Below, in pieces: positions 2,825 through 14,966 of a DNA stretch of 64,000 nt. Positions within the stretch are counted from its first letter, which is position 1; each line of letters begins with the position of its first letter. The position numbers and the translations under genes are program-made. The notes under the pieces are model-generated. The model had not been told where the DNA came from. It saw nothing but the letters and a program-made list of their open reading frames with translations, and did not search any database. This DNA is from Leptolyngbya sp. FACHB-321 (GTDB taxonomy: Bacteria > Cyanobacteriota > Cyanobacteriia > Leptolyngbyales > Leptolyngbyaceae), in assembly GCF_014695975.1 (NCBI RefSeq), contig NZ_JACJPI010000073.1, positions 1-64,000 of the forward strand, written 5' to 3'.

Positions 2825-3826
2825 ATGTCTTTAAAGAATTCCTGGCAGCAACAGCAACAGCAACGTCAGCAGGAAGTCACACAGCGCCAGCAGGAAGTCT
2901 CTGCTTCTTTAGCAGCAACTCGGCAAGACCGCCAAGCCAAGGCAGTCCAACTGCGTCATGAACTGAGCCTCTTCCGTGAGGTGTTAGGGAGTCAAAACAC
3001 AGCACGCCGCACTGAACTACAGCAGTTTTGCCAGCGTTTGCATTTAGAAACGCAATCGTTTTTAGCGGCAGCGGGCGATCGACGTTACGTACAAGCCACT
3101 CAACTAGCCGCAGAACTTAATCTCTTTGTGCAAATGCTCCAACAACAAACGGCAGCGTTTCTTACAGAGGCGCAAGCAGAACGAGCCGTTGCCGCACCAC
3201 AGTTAAAACAAGAATTGGTTGCATTTGTTAGTGATTTGCGTTCAGACGTGCAGAGCTACCTGATTGAACTCGAAGCCGTTCGTGAAAATCAAGCTGTGCA
3301 GTTAAGCCAGGCACTTATTGACGGAAGGGCAAAGCGCGAAGCTGAAACACAAGCGTTATTTCAGCGTCTTGCAGTCTTTCGAGCAGAACTGCAACGGTTT
3401 TCTCAAGATTTACACCATACTGTTTGGGGCGGCGAGAGTGCTGCTAACATCGAAACCCCTGCTGCAAAGCTACCAGCAGTAGCACAAGCCTCTACTAAAA
3501 ATGGGAACCAGCCTACTAGTTGCATAGCAGTGTTACCGAATGAGTCTGTAGCTGTCCCGGCAACAGTAGAAGCACAACATAGCAGTGCCGTTGCTGTTAC
3601 GTCCCCGGCAAAAGTGATGAAGGCGTCACAGGAGGGAATCGGCTGCGAAAAGGAAGTTTATGCTTACATCCAAAATGCACAAGGCGCAAGACTTACAGAA
3701 ATTGAAAGGGCGCTTAATCTAAGCCGTTTTCAAGCCGTAGATGCTCTACGATCGCTGATTAAAAAAGGCTTAATTACCCAGCGTGATCGCATCTATCTTG
3801 CTCAAGGACATCTTGCCCATACGTGA
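2825..3826 (+). CDS. gvpC: Gas vesicle protein GvpC with C-terminal winged-helix-like domain
   Basis: GvpC coats and stiffens the gas vesicle. After a Gln-rich N-terminus, residues about 50-195 form a helical 33-residue repeat; equivalent Phe residues fall at 68, 101 and 134, exactly 33 apart, with the next unit degenerate. A low-complexity linker (about 200-270) leads to a separate domain at 274-326 (GARLTEIERAL, RFQAVDALRSL, QRDRIYL). That domain recurs at the end of the neighbouring GvpN (27 of 53 identical). A strong GGGGAGGAG ribosome site precedes the ATG. The classical Anabaena GvpC is about 190 residues and lacks such a tail, so this copy is unusually long. Confidence 0.92.
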   Translation: MSLKNSWQQQQQQRQQEVTQRQQEVSASLAATRQDRQAKAVQLRHELSLFREVLGSQNTARRTELQQFCQRLHLETQSFLAAAGDRRYVQATQLAAELNLFVQMLQQQTAAFLTEAQAERAVAAPQLKQELVAFVSDLRSDVQSYLIELEAVRENQAVQLSQALIDGRAKREAETQALFQRLAVFRAELQRFSQDLHHTVWGGESAANIETPAAKLPAVAQASTKNGNQPTSCIAVLPNESVAVPATVEAQHSSAVAVTSPAKVMKASQEGIGCEKEVYAYIQNAQGARLTEIERALNLSRFQAVDALRSLIKKGLITQRDRIYLAQGHLAHT

Positions 3827-3954
3827 AGAAAGGAAGCAGGGAAGAAGAATCCATGCAGCGCTAAGCACATCTAGCCCTGTAGCGCACCACCTTACACTCT
3901 CAGACCCTACATCCCCTCACACCGACTCCCCGAACCCCACTCAGAGGTTAAACC

Positions 3955-5304
3955 GTGACGACTATACTTCGAGCTAGCCCCCGTCGATTTGTTAGTACTC
4001 CTGCTGTTGAACGAGTTGCTAGCCGTGCTCTGCGCTATTTGCAATCTGGCTACTCTGTCCATTTACGTGGTCCTGCTGGAACCGGTAAAACAACGCTAGC
4101 ATTGCATTTGGCTGATCTGCTTGCCCGCCCACTCATGTTGATTTTTGGTGATGACGAGTTCAAAACATCTGACCTAATTGGCAATCAGTCGGGCTATACG
4201 CGCAAGCGAGTAGTTGATAACTACATTCACAGCGTTGTCAAAGTCGAAGATGAAGTGCGGCAAAACTGGGCTGATTCTCGCCTCACGCTTGCCTGCCGTG
4301 AAGGTTTTACCCTGGTGTATGACGAGTTCAACCGCTCGCGTCCAGAGGTCAACAACGTCCTACTGTCAGCGTTGGAGGAGAAACTACTGGTATTACCACC
4401 TAGCAATAGCCGTAGCGAGTATGTTCGGGTCAGTCCCCATTTTCGTGCCATTTTCACATCTAACCCAGACGAATACTGTGGTGTTCATGCGACGCAAGAT
4501 GCTTTGATGGATCGGCTGGTGACTATCAGTATGCCTGAGCCAGATGAGCTGACGCAGCAAGAAATTTTGGTGCAAAAAACAGAAGTCGATCGTGCAAGTG
4601 CGCTGCTTATCGTGCGCCTAGTCAAAGAATTCCGTATCCGCACCAATAATGAGAAGTCTTCTGGCTTGCGGTCTTGCCTAATGTTAGGCAAGGTTTGTCA
4701 CGACCATGAGATTTTAGCAACGCCTAGCAATGCTGATTTCCGTGATCTTTGTTCCGATGTCCTCCTCTCTCGCTCCAGCTTGCCTTTAAAGGAAGCAACC
4801 CAAATTCTATGGGAACTGCTGAATGAAACAATCAGCATGAACCTGGTCGAGACAGAACTAAGTGAGACAGAGCAGAATGCTTCACCTTACGGTCTGGCTG
4901 TTGGTTCATCGGATGTGGCGATCGCTCAAGCCGCCGCAATTGCAGAAGACCTGGAAGCACTAGCAGCAGAAGCGCTGACAGCTGAAACAGCTCCGCTGAT
5001 CGTGATTGCAACGGAAGAGCCGACGGACAGCCCGAATGAAATGCCGATTATAGTGACACCATCTGAGTCGGTAGCACCCATTCAAGAAGCAGTAATCGAA
5101 GCGATCGTTCCCGCAATAGAAGAAGTCATTCCCTATGAGCAGGAAATTCTTGCTTATCTTAAGCAAGTCAATGGAGCACGACTGTCTCAGATTGAGCAAG
5201 CCCTGGCACTGGATCGCTTCCGCACAGTAGATGTTTTACGCTTGCTTGCAGAAAAGGGTAGCGTCTTGCTACGCGATCGACTCTATCTTCCTTCAGAGGC
5301 TTAA
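3955..5304 (+). CDS. gvpN: Gas vesicle AAA+ ATPase GvpN with C-terminal winged-helix-like domain
   Basis: GvpN is a MoxR-like AAA+ ATPase needed for gas vesicle maturation. Walker A is GPAGTGKT (residues 39-46), Walker B VYDEF (121-125), followed by [20 protein letters not shown], a sensor and arginine-finger region. Residues about 300-390 are an acidic Ala/Glu linker. Residues 394-446 ([30 protein letters not shown]) repeat the domain at the end of GvpC. The start is GTG, 7 nt after AGAGG. It lies 128 bp after gvpC and 3 bp before gvpJ. Confidence 0.95.
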
Positions 5305-5307
5305 GCT

Positions 5308-5697
5308 ATGACTGCTGCTATACCGACAAGAAGCTACCCCAACACACCGTCATCTACCAAAGACTCAGCGCGATCGATTTCGACCTCGACCTCAGGCTCG
5401 ACGTTGGCAGATGTACTGGAACGAGTGTTAGATAAAGGTATTGTCATTGCTGGCGATATCTCCGTTTCCGTTGCCACAACAGAGCTGCTTACCATTCGCA
5501 TTCGGCTGCTCATTGCCTCGGTCGACAAAGCGCGAGAAATGGGCATCAACTGGTGGGAGAATAATCCTCACTTTAGCGCTCAGTCTCAAAATCTGATTGA
5601 GGCGAACCAGCAATTGATGCAACGAGTAGAGAGCCTGGAAACCGAATTGCGATCGCTTCGCCCAGCGCCAGCCAGCCAGTCAGTACCAACAGCCTAA
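5308..5697 (+). CDS. gvpJ: Gas vesicle protein GvpJ
   Basis: GvpJ is a minor GvpA paralogue thought to act in nucleation of the vesicle. After a Ser/Thr-rich lead of about 30 residues, the GvpA-like core runs LADVLERVLDKGIVIAGDI and VATTELLTIRIRLLIASV. It continues with GINWWENNP and a helical tail (LIEANQQLMQRVESLETELRSL). The ATG follows the gvpN stop by 3 bp, with AGAGG inside the gvpN end, so translation is probably coupled. Length 129 residues, typical for GvpJ. Confidence 0.95.
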   Translation: MTAAIPTRSYPNTPSSTKDSARSISTSTSGSTLADVLERVLDKGIVIAGDISVSVATTELLTIRIRLLIASVDKAREMGINWWENNPHFSAQSQNLIEANQQLMQRVESLETELRSLRPAPASQSVPTA

Positions 5698-5850: not shown

Positions 5851-6312
5851 GTGACCGCTTCTGATCTTCCTATTCAGGCTATTGCCACTTCGCCTAAAGC
5901 TAGTAAGGATGCTGGCTTGGCTCCTCTGCTGCTCACCATTGTGGAACTAGTGCGCCAACTAATGGAGGCACAGGTCATTCGGCGCATGGAAACAGGCGAC
6001 CTAAGTGATGAAGACCTCGAACGTGCTGCCGAAAGCCTCCGCAAATTGGAAGAGCAAGTCATCGAAATTTGCGGCATTTTTGAGATTGATCCCGCTGACT
6101 TAAACATTGATCTAGGTGAAGTTGGCACCCTTTTACCAAAAGCAGGTGGCTACTACCCCGGTGAAAGCACCGCCCACCCAACTATTTTAGAACTCCTTGA
6201 TCGTCTCCTGAACACAGGCGTTGTTCTGCAAGGTAATGTCGATTTGGGATTGGCAAACATTGACCTGATTCATGCAAAATTGCAATTAGTCTTAACGGCA
6301 AAACCAATTTAG
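5851..6312 (+). CDS. gvpK: Gas vesicle protein GvpK with GvpA-like C-terminus
   Basis: GvpK is an accessory protein required for gas vesicle formation. Residues about 22-95 hold the GvpK domain: LLLTIVELVRQLMEAQVIRRM, GDLSDEDLERAAESLRKLEEQ and EIDPADLNIDLGEVG. Residues 111-149 (TILELLDRLLNTGVVLQGNV, IDLIHAKLQLVL) resemble the core of GvpA and GvpJ, so the protein looks bipartite. The start is GTG with only a weak purine-rich upstream region; no better start is visible. It is separated from gvpJ by 153 bp containing a stem-loop. Confidence 0.94.
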   Translation: MTASDLPIQAIATSPKASKDAGLAPLLLTIVELVRQLMEAQVIRRMETGDLSDEDLERAAESLRKLEEQVIEICGIFEIDPADLNIDLGEVGTLLPKAGGYYPGESTAHPTILELLDRLLNTGVVLQGNVDLGLANIDLIHAKLQLVLTAKPI

Positions 6313-6434: not shown

Positions 6435-7175
6435 ATGACCAGACTCTATCTTTACGGCATTTTTCCTACCCCCGGTCCGCAGAATTTGCAGCTCGAAGGT
6501 CTCGATAAGCAACCTGTGCAGACACAGATTGTCGATGATTTCACCTTTTTATATTCAGAAGCGCAACAAGACCGCTACCTAGCAAGCCGACGCAATTTGT
6601 TAGGGCATGAAAAGGTGCTGGAACAAGCAATGGAAGTTGGTTATCGGACGCTCTTGCCGCTTCAGTTTGGGTTAGTGATTGACGATTGGGCAACCGTGAC
6701 ACAGCAGTTAACCGCGCCCTACAGTCAAGGCTTGGAGAAGCTGTTTGCTAAACTCGACGGACAGCGCGAAGTTGGAGTGAAAGTGTTTTGGGAAGCCGAT
6801 CGTGAACTGCAAATGCTGCTGGCAGAGAATGAGCCGCTGAGAGAAAAGCGAGACAGCATGGAAGGTCGAACGTTGGGCATGGATGAGGTTGTAGCGATCG
6901 GACAAGCGATCGAACGTGCCATGACTGACCGCAAACAGGCTATCATTCATACCTTTCAGGAAACGCTCAATCCACTAGCAGGCGAGCGAGTTGAGAACGA
7001 CACATTGACTGAAGCCATGATTTACAACGCCGCTTACCTGATTCCATGGGAGGCAGAACCTAATTTCAGCACTCAGGTTGAGACGCTAGACAGCCACTTC
7101 GATGGTCGCCTCAAAATTCGCTACAACAACTTCACTGCACCATTTAACTTTGCTCAGCTTGATCGGCTGGAGTAG
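6435..7175 (+). CDS. gvpF: Gas vesicle protein GvpF/GvpL
   Basis: A 246-residue GvpF/GvpL-family protein, a minor component that contacts GvpA during assembly. Family features are LYLYGIFPTPGP at the N-terminus, LPLQFGLVI around residue 75, and a C-terminal alpha/beta part ending YLIPWEAEPNF, GRLKIRYNNFTAPFNF. No ribosome site is visible before the ATG; the upstream bases are C-rich. A palindrome around a HIP1 site (6385-6400) lies in the 122-bp leader. GvpF and GvpL are paralogous, so the letter is by convention. Confidence 0.92.
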   Translation: MTRLYLYGIFPTPGPQNLQLEGLDKQPVQTQIVDDFTFLYSEAQQDRYLASRRNLLGHEKVLEQAMEVGYRTLLPLQFGLVIDDWATVTQQLTAPYSQGLEKLFAKLDGQREVGVKVFWEADRELQMLLAENEPLREKRDSMEGRTLGMDEVVAIGQAIERAMTDRKQAIIHTFQETLNPLAGERVENDTLTEAMIYNAAYLIPWEAEPNFSTQVETLDSHFDGRLKIRYNNFTAPFNFAQLDRLE

Positions 7176-7292: not shown

Positions 7293-7607
7293 ATGCTCCT
7301 CAAACTCCTCTTCGCCCCCGTTACAGGTATGGGCTGGATAGCTGAACAAATTCAACAGCGTGCTGATGCTGAATTTGATGCTACAGAAAATCTTGGTAAA
7401 CGACTTTTGGCATTGCAACTTGCCTTTGATATGGGTGACATCCCTGAAGACGAGTTTGAAGTTCAAGAAGAAGAATTACTGTTAGCAATTCAGGTGCTCG
7501 AAGATAACCTGCGTGCCGAGGCTGAAATGGAAGCGGCAGAAGCAGCAGAAATAGAAGCAGCAGAAGCAATAGAAGTGGCAGCACAACAACTGACTGAGGG
7601 TGTTTAG
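7293..7607 (+). CDS. gvpG: Gas vesicle protein GvpG
   Basis: GvpG is a small helical accessory protein of the vesicle assembly machinery. The GvpG core covers residues 1-70: LLKLLFAPVTGMGWIAEQI, FDMGDIPEDEFEVQEEELL. The tail is an Ala/Glu run (about residues 72-95) coded by near-repeating GAAGCAGCA triplet sets, probably grown by slippage. The leader just before the ATG is pyrimidine-rich (TTTATCC units) and contains no ribosome site. It is the last clearly assignable gvp gene in this direction. Confidence 0.93.
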   Translation: MLLKLLFAPVTGMGWIAEQIQQRADAEFDATENLGKRLLALQLAFDMGDIPEDEFEVQEEELLLAIQVLEDNLRAEAEMEAAEAAEIEAAEAIEVAAQQLTEGV

Positions 7608-11665: not shown

Positions 11666-12487
11666 CTAGCTCAAGAACGGCAGGATAAGAGACGCTAATT
11701 CAGCCGCATACTTTTGCGGCAAAGCGTGATCAGCACCAGGAATAATTGCCAGTTTGGCATCTGGTATCTGGTCAGCATACGTCTGTGAGTGCCAGAGAGG
11801 AATCGTTTCGTCACGATCGCCTGTGATCACCAACGTTGGCACTTGCAGACGATAAATGTCCTTCTCTACCGTGTCGATCGCGTCTTCAGGCCGAAGGCGA
11901 TCGAGCAAAAAGGAGCAGGCAGCCGGTTGTACCATCAGTTCCCGTCGAAACCAGGCAATCTGCTCTACGGCTGGACGCTGCCCAATGAGAGCAGCGATCG
12001 GGGATGCCAAAGCTAACGCCCAATCAACAACTGGAGTGCGCCAGAGCAGCGGACGCAGATGGTCATATCGTCCACAAAAGCTATCGTCGCGAATGCCAGC
12101 AGGAGCCGCCAGCAAAAGCCCTTTGACTGCGGCTGGATATGCTAGCGCATAAGCAGCACCCACCCAGCCGCCAAAGGAATGCCCCAGTATATAGCAAGAC
12201 TCAATGTTTAAGTCTGCTAAGACTTGATGCACAAACGCAACTTCCTGGGCAATGTCGTAACGAATAGGTGGTTTGGCAGAGTTGCCAAAACCTAACAAAT
12301 CAAGACCAATGCAGCGAACGTGTGGGGCTAACCGTTCCATCAGCGGCAGCCAGTTTGTTGCATCGCCCAAAAAGCCGTGGAGCATCAGAAGCGGCATACC
12401 ATTGCCTTGCTCCAGGTAGGCGGCTGTGTGAGAAGCCTGACCGGCTATCAGATTCGATCGCAGGGTAAGAATTTGCTTTTTGTGCAA
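11666..12487 (-). CDS. Alpha/beta hydrolase
   Basis: A 273-residue alpha/beta-fold hydrolase of the epoxide-hydrolase/esterase type. It has the HGFLG oxyanion region, nucleophile elbow GHSFGG, acid in ITGDRDETIP and catalytic His in GADHALP. The substrate cannot be predicted. The start is unusual: the only initiator near the family N-terminus is a TTG at 12487. That codon follows the TAA stop of the upstream methyltransferase with no gap and in the same frame, and it has no ribosome site. Translation probably depends on termination and restart at that stop. Confidence 0.85.
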   Translation of the reverse strand: MHKKQILTLRSNLIAGQASHTAAYLEQGNGMPLLMLHGFLGDATNWLPLMERLAPHVRCIGLDLLGFGNSAKPPIRYDIAQEVAFVHQVLADLNIESCYILGHSFGGWVGAAYALAYPAAVKGLLLAAPAGIRDDSFCGRYDHLRPLLWRTPVVDWALALASPIAALIGQRPAVEQIAWFRRELMVQPAACSFLLDRLRPEDAIDTVEKDIYRLQVPTLVITGDRDETIPLWHSQTYADQIPDAKLAIIPGADHALPQKYAAELASLILPFLS

Positions 12488-13621
12488 TTACGTATGAACC
12501 AGGAGATATTGACCATTCCCATTGTATTCACCTTCGCACGACTCAAAGATCGTTCCTAGCAGCAGCAGATAGAAGCGCCAAATCCGTCGGAATTTAGCAT
12601 AATCCATGCCATAGTCCAGATGCTTCACAAGCTCTTGACTAGCGTCAAAGCGGTGCAACCAGTCTGTCAGCGTCTTGTGGTAATTAGAGCCGTTGAGATA
12701 CCACCGATTGATTGTTTTCAGATCCCGGTTGTGGTTCGGCACTGCATCATAATTCCAATAGCGGCCATGTGGAAAGATATATTTGTGCGTAAAACCAGAC
12801 GACATATTGTTAGGAATGCGCGCCGTGATGATGTGAATAAAAACCTTGCCACCGCTCTTAAGCAAGGATGCTAACTTCTGAAATGCATTCGTCATATTAC
12901 CAACATGACAAAAGACTCCGATCGACAGAATCTTGTCGAACTTCTCTTCAAACTGAACCTCATTCAAATCACCTTCACACAGTGTAAAGCGACCAGAACT
13001 TAAATAGCTCTTAGGATCTTGCATCTTTTGACGCATATACTCACATTGCTCATGGCTCAAGTTCAACCCTGTAAAGCGTACGTTGGGAAACTTGGAAAGA
13101 ATATAGTTGGGCACACAGCCCCAGCCACAACCAAAATCCAAAATATTATCGCCATCTTTAATCTCTAAGCGCTCAATCACCTGATCGATCATGTGCTTTT
13201 GTGATTCTTCTAAATCCACCGCGCCACGTTCCCACAAACCCATGCTGTACTTGGGATAAATCACTTCCCAGTTGCCCAACATTTGATTTAACATTGCCTG
13301 AGGACGATCGTATTGAACCTTCATCAGCTCTCGTGATCCTTCAGCAATATGGTCAGTTTCATTGAGCACCCATTGGTAAGGAGCAAGCAGACCAGGGCAG
13401 TGTTGAAACAACAAAGGCATGGAAGTATGAATCATCGATCGCACAACCGAATCTGGCACTTCCAAGCCATTAATATAAGCTTCTGCTAGTGCCATTTGAG
13501 CGGTGTTGACGGCTCTCGCTGCCCCTCGTGTGGCTTGATAGGCAAGTGGCGTTTTAAAGTTAATATCGCCTGTAATAGGAAGATGTTTCCGAATGGTTGG
13601 AAAGGCGCTTACAGAAGTCAT
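12488..13621 (-). CDS. CFA-synthase-like SAM-dependent methyltransferase
   Basis: A 377-residue class I methyltransferase of the cyclopropane-fatty-acid-synthase / coclaurine N-methyltransferase type. The SAM-binding motif is ILDFGCGWGCVPNYIL near residues 160-175. Upstream are YPKYSMGLWERGAVDLEESQ and downstream NLSHEQCEYMRQKM, LSIGVFCHVGN. The about 110-residue N-terminal part is helical. Start ATG at 13621 with GGAGAG upstream. It directly precedes an alpha/beta hydrolase and follows a desaturase on the same strand, which suggests lipid or small-molecule methylation; the substrate is unknown. Confidence 0.83.
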   Translation of the reverse strand: MTSVSAFPTIRKHLPITGDINFKTPLAYQATRGAARAVNTAQMALAEAYINGLEVPDSVVRSMIHTSMPLLFQHCPGLLAPYQWVLNETDHIAEGSRELMKVQYDRPQAMLNQMLGNWEVIYPKYSMGLWERGAVDLEESQKHMIDQVIERLEIKDGDNILDFGCGWGCVPNYILSKFPNVRFTGLNLSHEQCEYMRQKMQDPKSYLSSGRFTLCEGDLNEVQFEEKFDKILSIGVFCHVGNMTNAFQKLASLLKSGGKVFIHIITARIPNNMSSGFTHKYIFPHGRYWNYDAVPNHNRDLKTINRWYLNGSNYHKTLTDWLHRFDASQELVKHLDYGMDYAKFRRIWRFYLLLLGTIFESCEGEYNGNGQYLLVHT

Positions 13622-14060
13622 TTTGTCTGCTCTCCACTTAAAGTACTGTTCAGTGAATCTTGAAACTTAGTAAATCAATGGTGCAGCCCACGTAGGAGTC
13701 CACCGTGGAACACATACTGAAAGCGTATGAGAAAGATTCCAATTATTCCATCGTATTCAACTGAAGAATTGTTAAGACCAGACTATCCTCTTTGCTTTCA
13801 ACGACTTACTTTCTAAGAATTTGTCTTGTATTGTTTTTAGCTCTTAGCTTTACATCTCATGCTAAGCGTTCAGCAAAAATAATTTCATCCGCTATAACGT
13901 TTAATCACTCCTGTTGAATGATCGTTTTACTTAATGATTTTTAGTAGCTTTTATTTACAATTAACGAAGCGACTCTTAGCGAAGAATCTCCCGAAGAAAA
14001 TATTTCATCTCTCCGAGAAATTATAGTCATTCTGAAGAATTTTGCAACTGTAGGCGGAAT
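13622..14060. other. AT-rich gap between desaturase and methyltransferase
   Basis: About 440 bp richer in A and T than the flanking genes. It probably carries the 3' end of the desaturase message and the promoter of the methyltransferase-hydrolase pair, both read leftward. I see no open frame, tRNA or convincing terminator hairpin in it. Confidence 0.4.
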
Positions 14061-14966
14061 TTAAATTAATGTCTCTGCTTCAGTAGCAAGCGCTACTTTT
14101 TGGTAGCTGTAATCTTTTGCCCGTTCAAGCAATTCTTTTTCGGATGGCACTCGAATTTTTGATGCTAGATTGAAAAACTCAAGCAATTTGATCAACTCAA
14201 AGGTGGGATCTGGCAAATAGGCGACTTGCCCCATTTGCAAAGTGATGCCGTGGCGAGCGGATGACTGAAACGCATGATGCAGATTGTGCCAGCCTTCACC
14301 CAAGGCAACAATCGCAACGAACCAATTATTGCGGCTGTGATCGTTTGTGATAAACGGTTGATCTCCCACCGTATGAGTTAGTGAGTTAACCAAGGCGACA
14401 CCGTGAAAGAGAACGGTCGTGCTGAGGAAAAAAGCAGCGAGATATTCCATGCCACCTAGGAAATAGGAAAGCAGACCAAGCGCAAGGGTAGGAACAAAGT
14501 GCAGTCGATCGATCAGCCTCATCACAACATCGCTCTCAACATCAGGGGGCAACTTTGCAGGCAAAAATTCTGAAGAGAAGAGCCACCCCGCTTGAGACCA
14601 CCAAAAGCCTCTTGCACCTTTAAAGGGTTGGTACGGCGAGTGCGGATCGTGATTCTGGTCAGAGAATTGATGATGCCTTGTATGGTGAGCCTTCCACCAA
14701 CTAGGTCCCATTTGACCAGCGGCGGCAGCTACAATGCTACCTAGCCACAAGACTGGCGCTGGCGCTTGATAGCTCTTGTGCGTTAACAACCTGTGATAAA
14801 TGCCAGTCGTGGCAAACATTCGAGTGACGTAGAGTAGCACTGCCCAGGCGATCGCGCCCCAGGATAAGCCAGTAAACAGCACGAGTAGTGCCCCAAAATG
14901 ACTCACCACGATCAACATAGGACCGATGATGTAAGAAACAACGGTGAGTTGCGAGTACGGCTTCAT
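14061..14966 (-). CDS. Delta-9-type fatty acid desaturase
   Basis: A membrane di-iron desaturase that inserts a cis double bond into membrane-lipid acyl chains. The three histidine boxes are HRLLTH (58-63), HHTRHH (94-99) and HNLHH (227-231), the pattern of stearoyl-CoA/DesC-type enzymes. Four hydrophobic segments are visible. At 301 residues it is slightly longer than typical DesC. Start ATG at 14966, with AAGGAA upstream. DesC-like activity is inferred from the box spacing; the regiospecificity is not certain. Confidence 0.88.
   Translation of the reverse strand: MKPYSQLTVVSYIIGPMLIVVSHFGALLVLFTGLSWGAIAWAVLLYVTRMFATTGIYHRLLTHKSYQAPAPVLWLGSIVAAAAGQMGPSWWKAHHTRHHQFSDQNHDPHSPYQPFKGARGFWWSQAGWLFSSEFLPAKLPPDVESDVVMRLIDRLHFVPTLALGLLSYFLGGMEYLAAFFLSTTVLFHGVALVNSLTHTVGDQPFITNDHSRNNWFVAIVALGEGWHNLHHAFQSSARHGITLQMGQVAYLPDPTFELIKLLEFFNLASKIRVPSEKELLERAKDYSYQKVALATEAETLI

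Follow-up and report, generated by a model that had tools for sequence, protein, structure and literature searches.

The window, by which we mean the whole 64,000-nt stretch of Leptolyngbya sp. FACHB-321 DNA that was analysed, carries on its + strand a gas vesicle cluster that runs from gvpA (2441-2659) through gvpG (7293-7607). Its genes, and the parts of two of their products, are as follows:

2441-2659, + strand: gvpA, shell protein (Pfam Gas_vesicle, 63.4 bits, cut-off 25)
2825-3826, + strand: putative gvpC, ATG start, ORF of 333 aa
2825-3427, + strand: GvpC body, residues 1-201, coiled repeats, ending near a VWG motif (from the ORF and self-comparison)
3428-3643, + strand: GvpC linker, residues 202-273, low complexity (from the sequence)
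3644-3802, + strand: GvpC tail, residues 274-326, predicted winged helix (from identity to the GvpN tail, AlphaFold2 and Pfam TrmB)
3955-5304, + strand: gvpN, GTG start, 449 aa
3955-4824, + strand: GvpN AAA+ ATPase part, residues 1-290 (TIGR02640 match at residues 12-273)
4825-5133, + strand: GvpN linker, residues 291-393, low complexity, partly disordered in the model (from pLDDT and identity)
5134-5292, + strand: GvpN tail, residues 394-446, predicted winged helix (from identity to the GvpC tail and AlphaFold2)
5308-5697, + strand: GvpJ-like protein (Pfam Gas_vesicle, 61.6 bits)
5851-6312, + strand: GvpK with a C-terminal GvpA-like domain (Pfam GvpK, 112.5 bits; Gas_vesicle, 52.1 bits)
6435-7175, + strand: GvpF/L, gvpF (Pfam GvpL_GvpF, 213.7 bits)
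7293-7607, + strand: GvpG (Pfam GvpG, 83.1 bits)

The product of 3955-5304 can be assigned firmly to GvpN by its match to TIGR02640 (396.7 bits vs. a cut-off of 266.8, residues 12-273). The identification of GvpC rests on the position of its gene between gvpA and gvpN, as for cyanobacterial GvpC, together with a 33-residue periodicity: when the protein was compared with itself, an offset of 33 scored 0.32 per site against a 95th percentile of 0.037 in shuffled sequences, ranking second to an offset of 51 (0.39), and the GvpC repeat model TIGR02641 gave 15.9 bits, below its cut-off of 18.8. Calling the gene at 5308-5697 J is a guess from its place in the cluster. The Gas_vesicle domain found at the C-terminus of GvpK (5851-6312) is a full-length GvpA-like domain.

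GvpC and GvpN end in similar tails. The initial annotation had aligned residues 274-326 of GvpC (3644-3802) with residues 394-446 of GvpN (5134-5292), gap-free and with 27 of 53 residues identical, and this alignment is reproduced exactly. A BLASTP comparison of whole GvpC with whole GvpN yielded 67.8 bits (E 6e-17, in an aligned stretch that takes in linker), and an ungapped BLOSUM62 comparison of the C-terminal portions (residue 201 onwards of GvpC, residue 291 onwards of GvpN) scored 149 at best, whereas 300 shuffles reached no more than 54; chance or composition as the cause of the likeness is ruled out by these two results. When 26 GvpC tails were aligned as a group with 34 GvpN tails by hhalign, the E-value was 1.4e-31. 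Judged from sequence, the tails share a common ancestry, as paralogues of a single domain.

The tails had also been described as winged-helix-like, and structure prediction agrees for both. An AlphaFold2 model of the GvpC tail, whose input was an alignment of 46 tails with the GvpC tail first, has a pLDDT of 89.7, with helices at tail residues 3-13, 18-25 and 29-42 followed by strands at 45-48 and 51-54 (order H-H-H-E-E), i.e. the winged-helix pattern of three helices and then a two-stranded hairpin. A model of full-length GvpN, from an alignment of 38 GvpN proteins, has helices at 393-405, 410-417 and 421-433 and strands at 437-440 and 443-446 (ten-residue pLDDT means of 85-96), preceded by a linker whose pLDDT is below 50 at residues 312-318 and 344-390; the two tails are therefore predicted to have the same order of elements, rather than unrelated folds. 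In a Foldseek search of the PDB with the tail model no match fell below E 0.001, the top one being a DNA-binding protein (7bzh, E 7.8e-3, TM 0.80), and VIA-align 2 superposed the model on a chain of 7bzh over 57 residues with an rmsd of 1.3 A (Z 10.7). Many other winged helices lie near 7bzh in the VIA-align 2 results, including Z-DNA binders, RPA32 (RPA32C) and ESCRT-II. The winged helices of RPA32 and ESCRT-II bind proteins, and since the structural neighbours thus include both DNA binders and protein binders, the fold leaves the function undecided.

The Pfam family nearest to the tails is TrmB (PF01978), matched at E 0.01 or better by 19 of 26 GvpC tails and 26 of 34 GvpN tails. Against its cut-off of 25.6 bits, the isolated GvpC tail of Leptolyngbya sp. 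FACHB-321 (61 aa) scored 26.9-27.5, the isolated GvpN tail 12.2 and whole GvpC 23.1, the last two below the cut-off; a sequence search for relatives of known structure gave no match below E 0.3. The tails are accordingly similar to the TrmB/MarR winged helices (PF01978, PF01047) in fold and weakly so in sequence, but those domains sit on regulators, whereas the tails sit on the shell protein GvpC and the ATPase GvpN.

The guess that similar tails exist in other entries was right, and part of the likeness is already in print, as one clause on a short GvpC-GvpN resemblance in a single genus, Planktothrix (PMC5259702, 2017). All non-planktic strains in that study have a GvpC of about 40 kDa (GvpC40), whose C-terminus has 28 residues in common with GvpN at 64% identity, whereas planktic strains have a GvpC of 16-28.6 kDa; aerotopes showed no difference in abundance or size between one planktic and one non-planktic strain. 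In the parts of that paper that concern GvpC only the short Planktothrix stretch is given, with no domain, fold, wider spread or function. A GvpC C-terminal stretch common to GvpN, which characterises the GvpC40 type, is also found in Leptolyngbya sp. FACHB-321, where 17 of the 28 residues are identical. In our own genome set, G157 (locus L085) has a GvpC of 39.5 kDa with 18 of 28 residues identical to its GvpN, and because these values reproduce the published ones it is probably a GvpC40-type, non-planktic (benthic-type) Planktothrix strain. Genome G255 (L086), of the same genus, has two gvpC frames of 28.6 and 20.4 kDa (L086 6989-7729 and 8813-9349), both untailed, beside a tailed gvpN, and is probably a planktic-type Planktothrix. 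What is new here is the fold of the tail, its near-exclusivity to gvp genes and the survey across cyanobacteria; among the matches listed in open-licence PubMed Central, we found no paper on the tail domain, its fold, spread or role. Classical short GvpC proteins such as that of Anabaena are not known to carry a tail of this kind, and this may explain why the domain has attracted little attention.

Of 386 Cyanobacteriota genomes, 56 have a GvpN above the cut-off. A profile built from 26 aligned GvpC tails and run at E 0.01 on the whole sequence of these 56 gave 47 matches in 25 genomes, comprising 19 in GvpC-type genes, 26 in GvpN and two in other genes, whose products resemble, by eye, a MarR-type regulator and an SbcC-like coiled-coil protein. 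In each of the 19 genomes where GvpC was tailed, GvpN was tailed as well. Run on all 386 genomes at E 1e-5, with at most 16 candidates scored per genome, the profile found GvpC-type or GvpN genes in 45 of 46 matches. In Leptolyngbya sp. FACHB-321 there are just two copies at the thresholds used, those on GvpC and GvpN. Within the cyanobacterial genomes searched, the domain recognised by this profile lives almost only on gas vesicle proteins. Plasmid gvp loci from outside the cyanobacteria (Methylosinus, Octadecabacter, Spartinivicinus and Halobacterium, four loci only) gave no tail below E 0.4.

Several individual loci may be described here. The single E 1e-5 match outside gvp genes is a 138-aa frame at G299:C9:42392-42517. 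Four genomes of family f7 (L119, L120, L121 and L122) have a short tailed GvpC (frames of 211-276 aa) kilobases downstream of gvpN and not upstream; all four frames match a GvpC N-terminal model at E 1.9e-12 or better, and a tailed gvpC lying several kb 3' of gvpN would be overlooked if only the gvpA-gvpN interval were inspected. Cyanothece sp. SIO2G6 (L031 1388-4027) has an 880-aa GvpC frame with extended alanine/glutamate-rich repeats before the tail. Genome G320 has two near-alike gvpN genes about 4 kb apart (L076 5866-6852 and 9885-10838), and G262 has two gvpN loci, one with both tails (C29, L087) and one with a diverged GvpN tail only (C148, L109).

Co-occurrence of the tails was scored from 85 GvpN frames, drawn from 30 named loci and from 53 of the 56 gvpN-bearing genomes (all but G237, G312 and G357). 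Of these frames, one was dropped as truncated and four because a Walker-motif filter missed them (L067, L085 and L087, with both tails, and L081, with neither); three identical cores were merged, near-identical ones being kept, which gave 77 rows. Since rows were found via GvpN, a tailed GvpC without a genomic GvpN would appear only in the 386-genome search. The status of the GvpC tail was scored by cluster, so that L109 counts as GvpN-only though another cluster of the same genome, G262, does encode a tailed GvpC; the exceptions are L068, L069, L071 and L072, where a tailed GvpC several kb away was counted. Around named loci without a tailed GvpC, up to 9 kb was inspected on each side.

Both tails are present in 28 rows, the GvpN tail only in 12, the GvpC tail only in three and neither in 34, so that GvpN retains its tail in 28 of the 31 rows where GvpC is tailed vs. 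12 of the 46 where it is not. The survey called for by the initial annotation thus bears out a strong association, while the 12 and three exceptional rows go part of the way towards the outcome that the initial annotation named as refuting, a tail on one protein independently of the other. Fisher's test gives 2e-8, which is not a valid p-value because the rows share kinship. On well-supported branches of the tree, two independent pairs differ in the GvpC tail, with GvpN following in 1.7 of them on average, and six differ in the GvpN tail, with GvpC following in 1.6 and showing no difference in 4.3; this test of dependence is not significant. Co-occurrence is therefore strong but not strict, and there are not enough independent events for dependence to be proved. 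A single well-supported clade of 33 rows, which includes Nostoc, Calothrix and Tolypothrix loci, accounts for 11 of the 12 GvpN-only rows; GvpC in this clade, where seen, is a short repeat protein that ends at or near a SIFG- or SVIG-type motif. The remaining GvpN-only row is G255. The same tail is found on an annotated GvpN of Nostoc sphaeroides plasmid p4 (WP_118171795.1, E 6e-25), where the tail profile matches no further frame of the 13.7-kb locus, not even GvpC. The GvpC-only rows are L012, L014 (Drouetiella) and L016 (Kaiparowitsia), in which a GvpN tail is undetectable.

Purifying selection acts on both tails, to judge from median dN/dS values of 0.068 (GvpC tail) and 0.055 (GvpN tail) across Leptolyngbya sp. 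FACHB-321 and six close relatives (21 pairs); dS in these pairs is high and near saturation. In both proteins the linkers of the same seven sequences change faster than the tails (GvpC linker, mean amino acid identity 0.57 and median dN/dS 0.18; GvpN linker, 0.40 and 0.34). Across 32 GvpC proteins the tail is the best-conserved part, with a mean majority-residue frequency of 0.69, compared with 0.61 over the N-terminal 45 residues, 0.48 over what remains of the body and 0.33 over the linker. The recognition helix and wing, the face with which winged helices usually grip DNA, are almost invariant in GvpC tails (R29, Q31, Q47, R48, D49, R50), and all 32 carry R50 plus Y, F or H at position 52, as do 19 of the 31 GvpN tails whose GvpC is tailed too. 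The mean net charge is near zero (GvpC tails, +0.7; GvpN tails in rows with both, +0.1).

GvpN tails differ according to whether GvpC is tailed. Where GvpC is tailed, 28 of the 31 GvpN tails keep R17 (or K), 25 keep E22 and 30 keep R37 (or K); where it is not, the corresponding counts are 1, 1 and 4 of 11. Ten of these 11 partnerless tails belong to the clade with tail-less GvpC, where R17 or E22 is kept in none of the ten; in that clade the GvpN copy has lost residues common to GvpC and GvpN, or has vanished. Such decay could fit a common interface that degenerated after loss of the partner, although with ten of 11 in a single clade it may be one event. The eleventh tail, that of G255, retains R17, E22, Q31 and R37, and this genome represents a separate, perhaps recent, loss of the GvpC tail. 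Within-genome co-evolution of the two tails is weak: GvpC-GvpN tail identity is 0.446 within genomes and 0.431 between genomes (permutation p 0.03), and the partial mirror correlation given the GvpN core is 0.23.

What might the tails do? A common partner had been proposed in the initial annotation, and this is plausible: near-exclusivity to gvp genes, co-occurrence and the decay in one clade speak for it, as does the binding behaviour of GvpC in Halobacterium (PMC9372576), whereas the 15 exceptional rows (12 and three of 77), the non-significant independent pairs and the undecayed GvpN tail of G255 speak against it. Halobacterium salinarum GvpC, like the protein described here, has a globular end after its repeats (aa 329-382), which binds itself, GvpN and GvpO in split-GFP assays (rf about 10-21) and has been described with a zinc-finger motif (PMC9372576); the authors suggested a possible role of GvpN in breaking the GvpC mesh where the vesicle grows (PMC9372576, PMC9501494). 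When the Halobacterium gvp locus (L134) was searched with a profile of 46 tails, by sequence comparison alone, the best E-value was 0.61, and the Halobacterium domain is thus best taken as an analogue, not a shown relative.

The reading that we favour, and hold tentatively as a serious possibility, is that the tails are an accessory docking module on a flexible tether, through which GvpC would pair with GvpC and with GvpN. GvpC lies on the exterior of the vesicle, and its tail would reach outward from the surface on the flexible linker. Like would pair with like, GvpC tails joining those of neighbouring GvpC molecules as well as the tail of GvpN, and this pairing may bring the ATPase to the growing vesicle, or may loosen the GvpC mesh where new GvpA enters. 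The near-neutral charge, the dispensable wing of GvpN and the near-confinement to gvp genes favour a protein partner in this docking, which we infer; in contrast, the almost invariant recognition helix and wing of GvpC tails favour nucleic acid. The GvpC tail is likely accessory, because the genome with a planktic-type 28.6-kDa GvpC has no GvpC tail, and gvp clusters of other lineages do without the GvpC copy.

One may also consider that both tails bind not each other but some third protein, be it a further Gvp factor or one from the host. We think this possible though rather unlikely. The near-exclusivity and co-occurrence data speak for it too, and in Halobacterium the partners of the GvpC C-terminus include GvpF, H, I, L and O (PMC9372576, PMC9501494), but when gene families present near gvpN in at least five of 80 loci (cut at differing lengths) were tallied, no real family was enriched with the tails. 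In this tally the gvpA, gvpJ and gvpK families occur at similar rates with and without tails, and GvpF, GvpG, a second GvpF/L, an ArsA-like ATPase and tandem-AAA families are rarer near tailed clusters. The ArsA-like ATPase, near gvpN in 35 of 46 loci with untailed GvpC vs. none of 34 with tailed GvpC, was considered as an accessory gene tracking the tails and rejected, since a close homologue lies beside a tandem-AAA gene on contig C83; as C83 belongs to Leptolyngbya sp. FACHB-321, the pattern there reflects linkage, not absence. On that contig a double-domain ArsA-type ATPase and a tandem-AAA ATPase are found together (L139 8017-9999, - strand, and 12458-14374, + strand), and homologues of both adjoin gvp in Nostoc-type clusters.

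It is unlikely, in our estimate, that the two tails do separate jobs and co-occur merely as products of one old duplication that were co-inherited and lost at different times. The exceptions in both directions and the non-significant independent pairs would be expected if this were so, and in G255 the GvpN tail is undecayed without a GvpC tail. On the other hand, the GvpN tail is absent from 34 of 46 rows without a GvpC tail vs. three of 31 with one, and R17 or E22 persists in none of the ten GvpN tails of the tail-less-GvpC clade.

Somewhat less likely still is that the tails bind nucleic acid, with vesicles or the ATPase tethered to DNA or RNA in the service of partition, of regulation or of assembly close to the gvp mRNA. 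Many of the nearest structural and Pfam matches are DNA-binding winged helices, and the near-invariance of the GvpC-tail recognition helix and wing is what such a role would predict, but protein-binding winged helices (RPA32C, ESCRT-II) are also among the nearest matches, 12 of 31 GvpN tails in GvpC-tailed rows lack the combination of R50 with Y, F or H at 52, and no other Leptolyngbya sp. FACHB-321 protein has the domain at the thresholds used. The near-zero net charge is likewise something one would not expect of a nucleic-acid binder. The bolder version, in which vesicle coat and ATPase bear nucleic-acid-binding winged helices that tether vesicles to the chromosome or to gvp messages, and planktonic lineages dropped the tether, strikes us as improbable; if true, such a tether would help vesicles to be inherited, regulated or assembled locally. 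Repeated recruitment of a widespread DNA-binding domain was rejected as the simplest reading, because the profile matches almost solely gvp genes.

The GvpC and GvpN tails make a small soluble pair that is directly testable, and the tail could perhaps be used as a natural tether for engineered gas vesicles in imaging. The ATPase GvpN is needed for vesicles to grow past the bicone stage (PMC11445434), and the tail domain that it has in common with GvpC bears on how GvpN reaches the vesicle shell.
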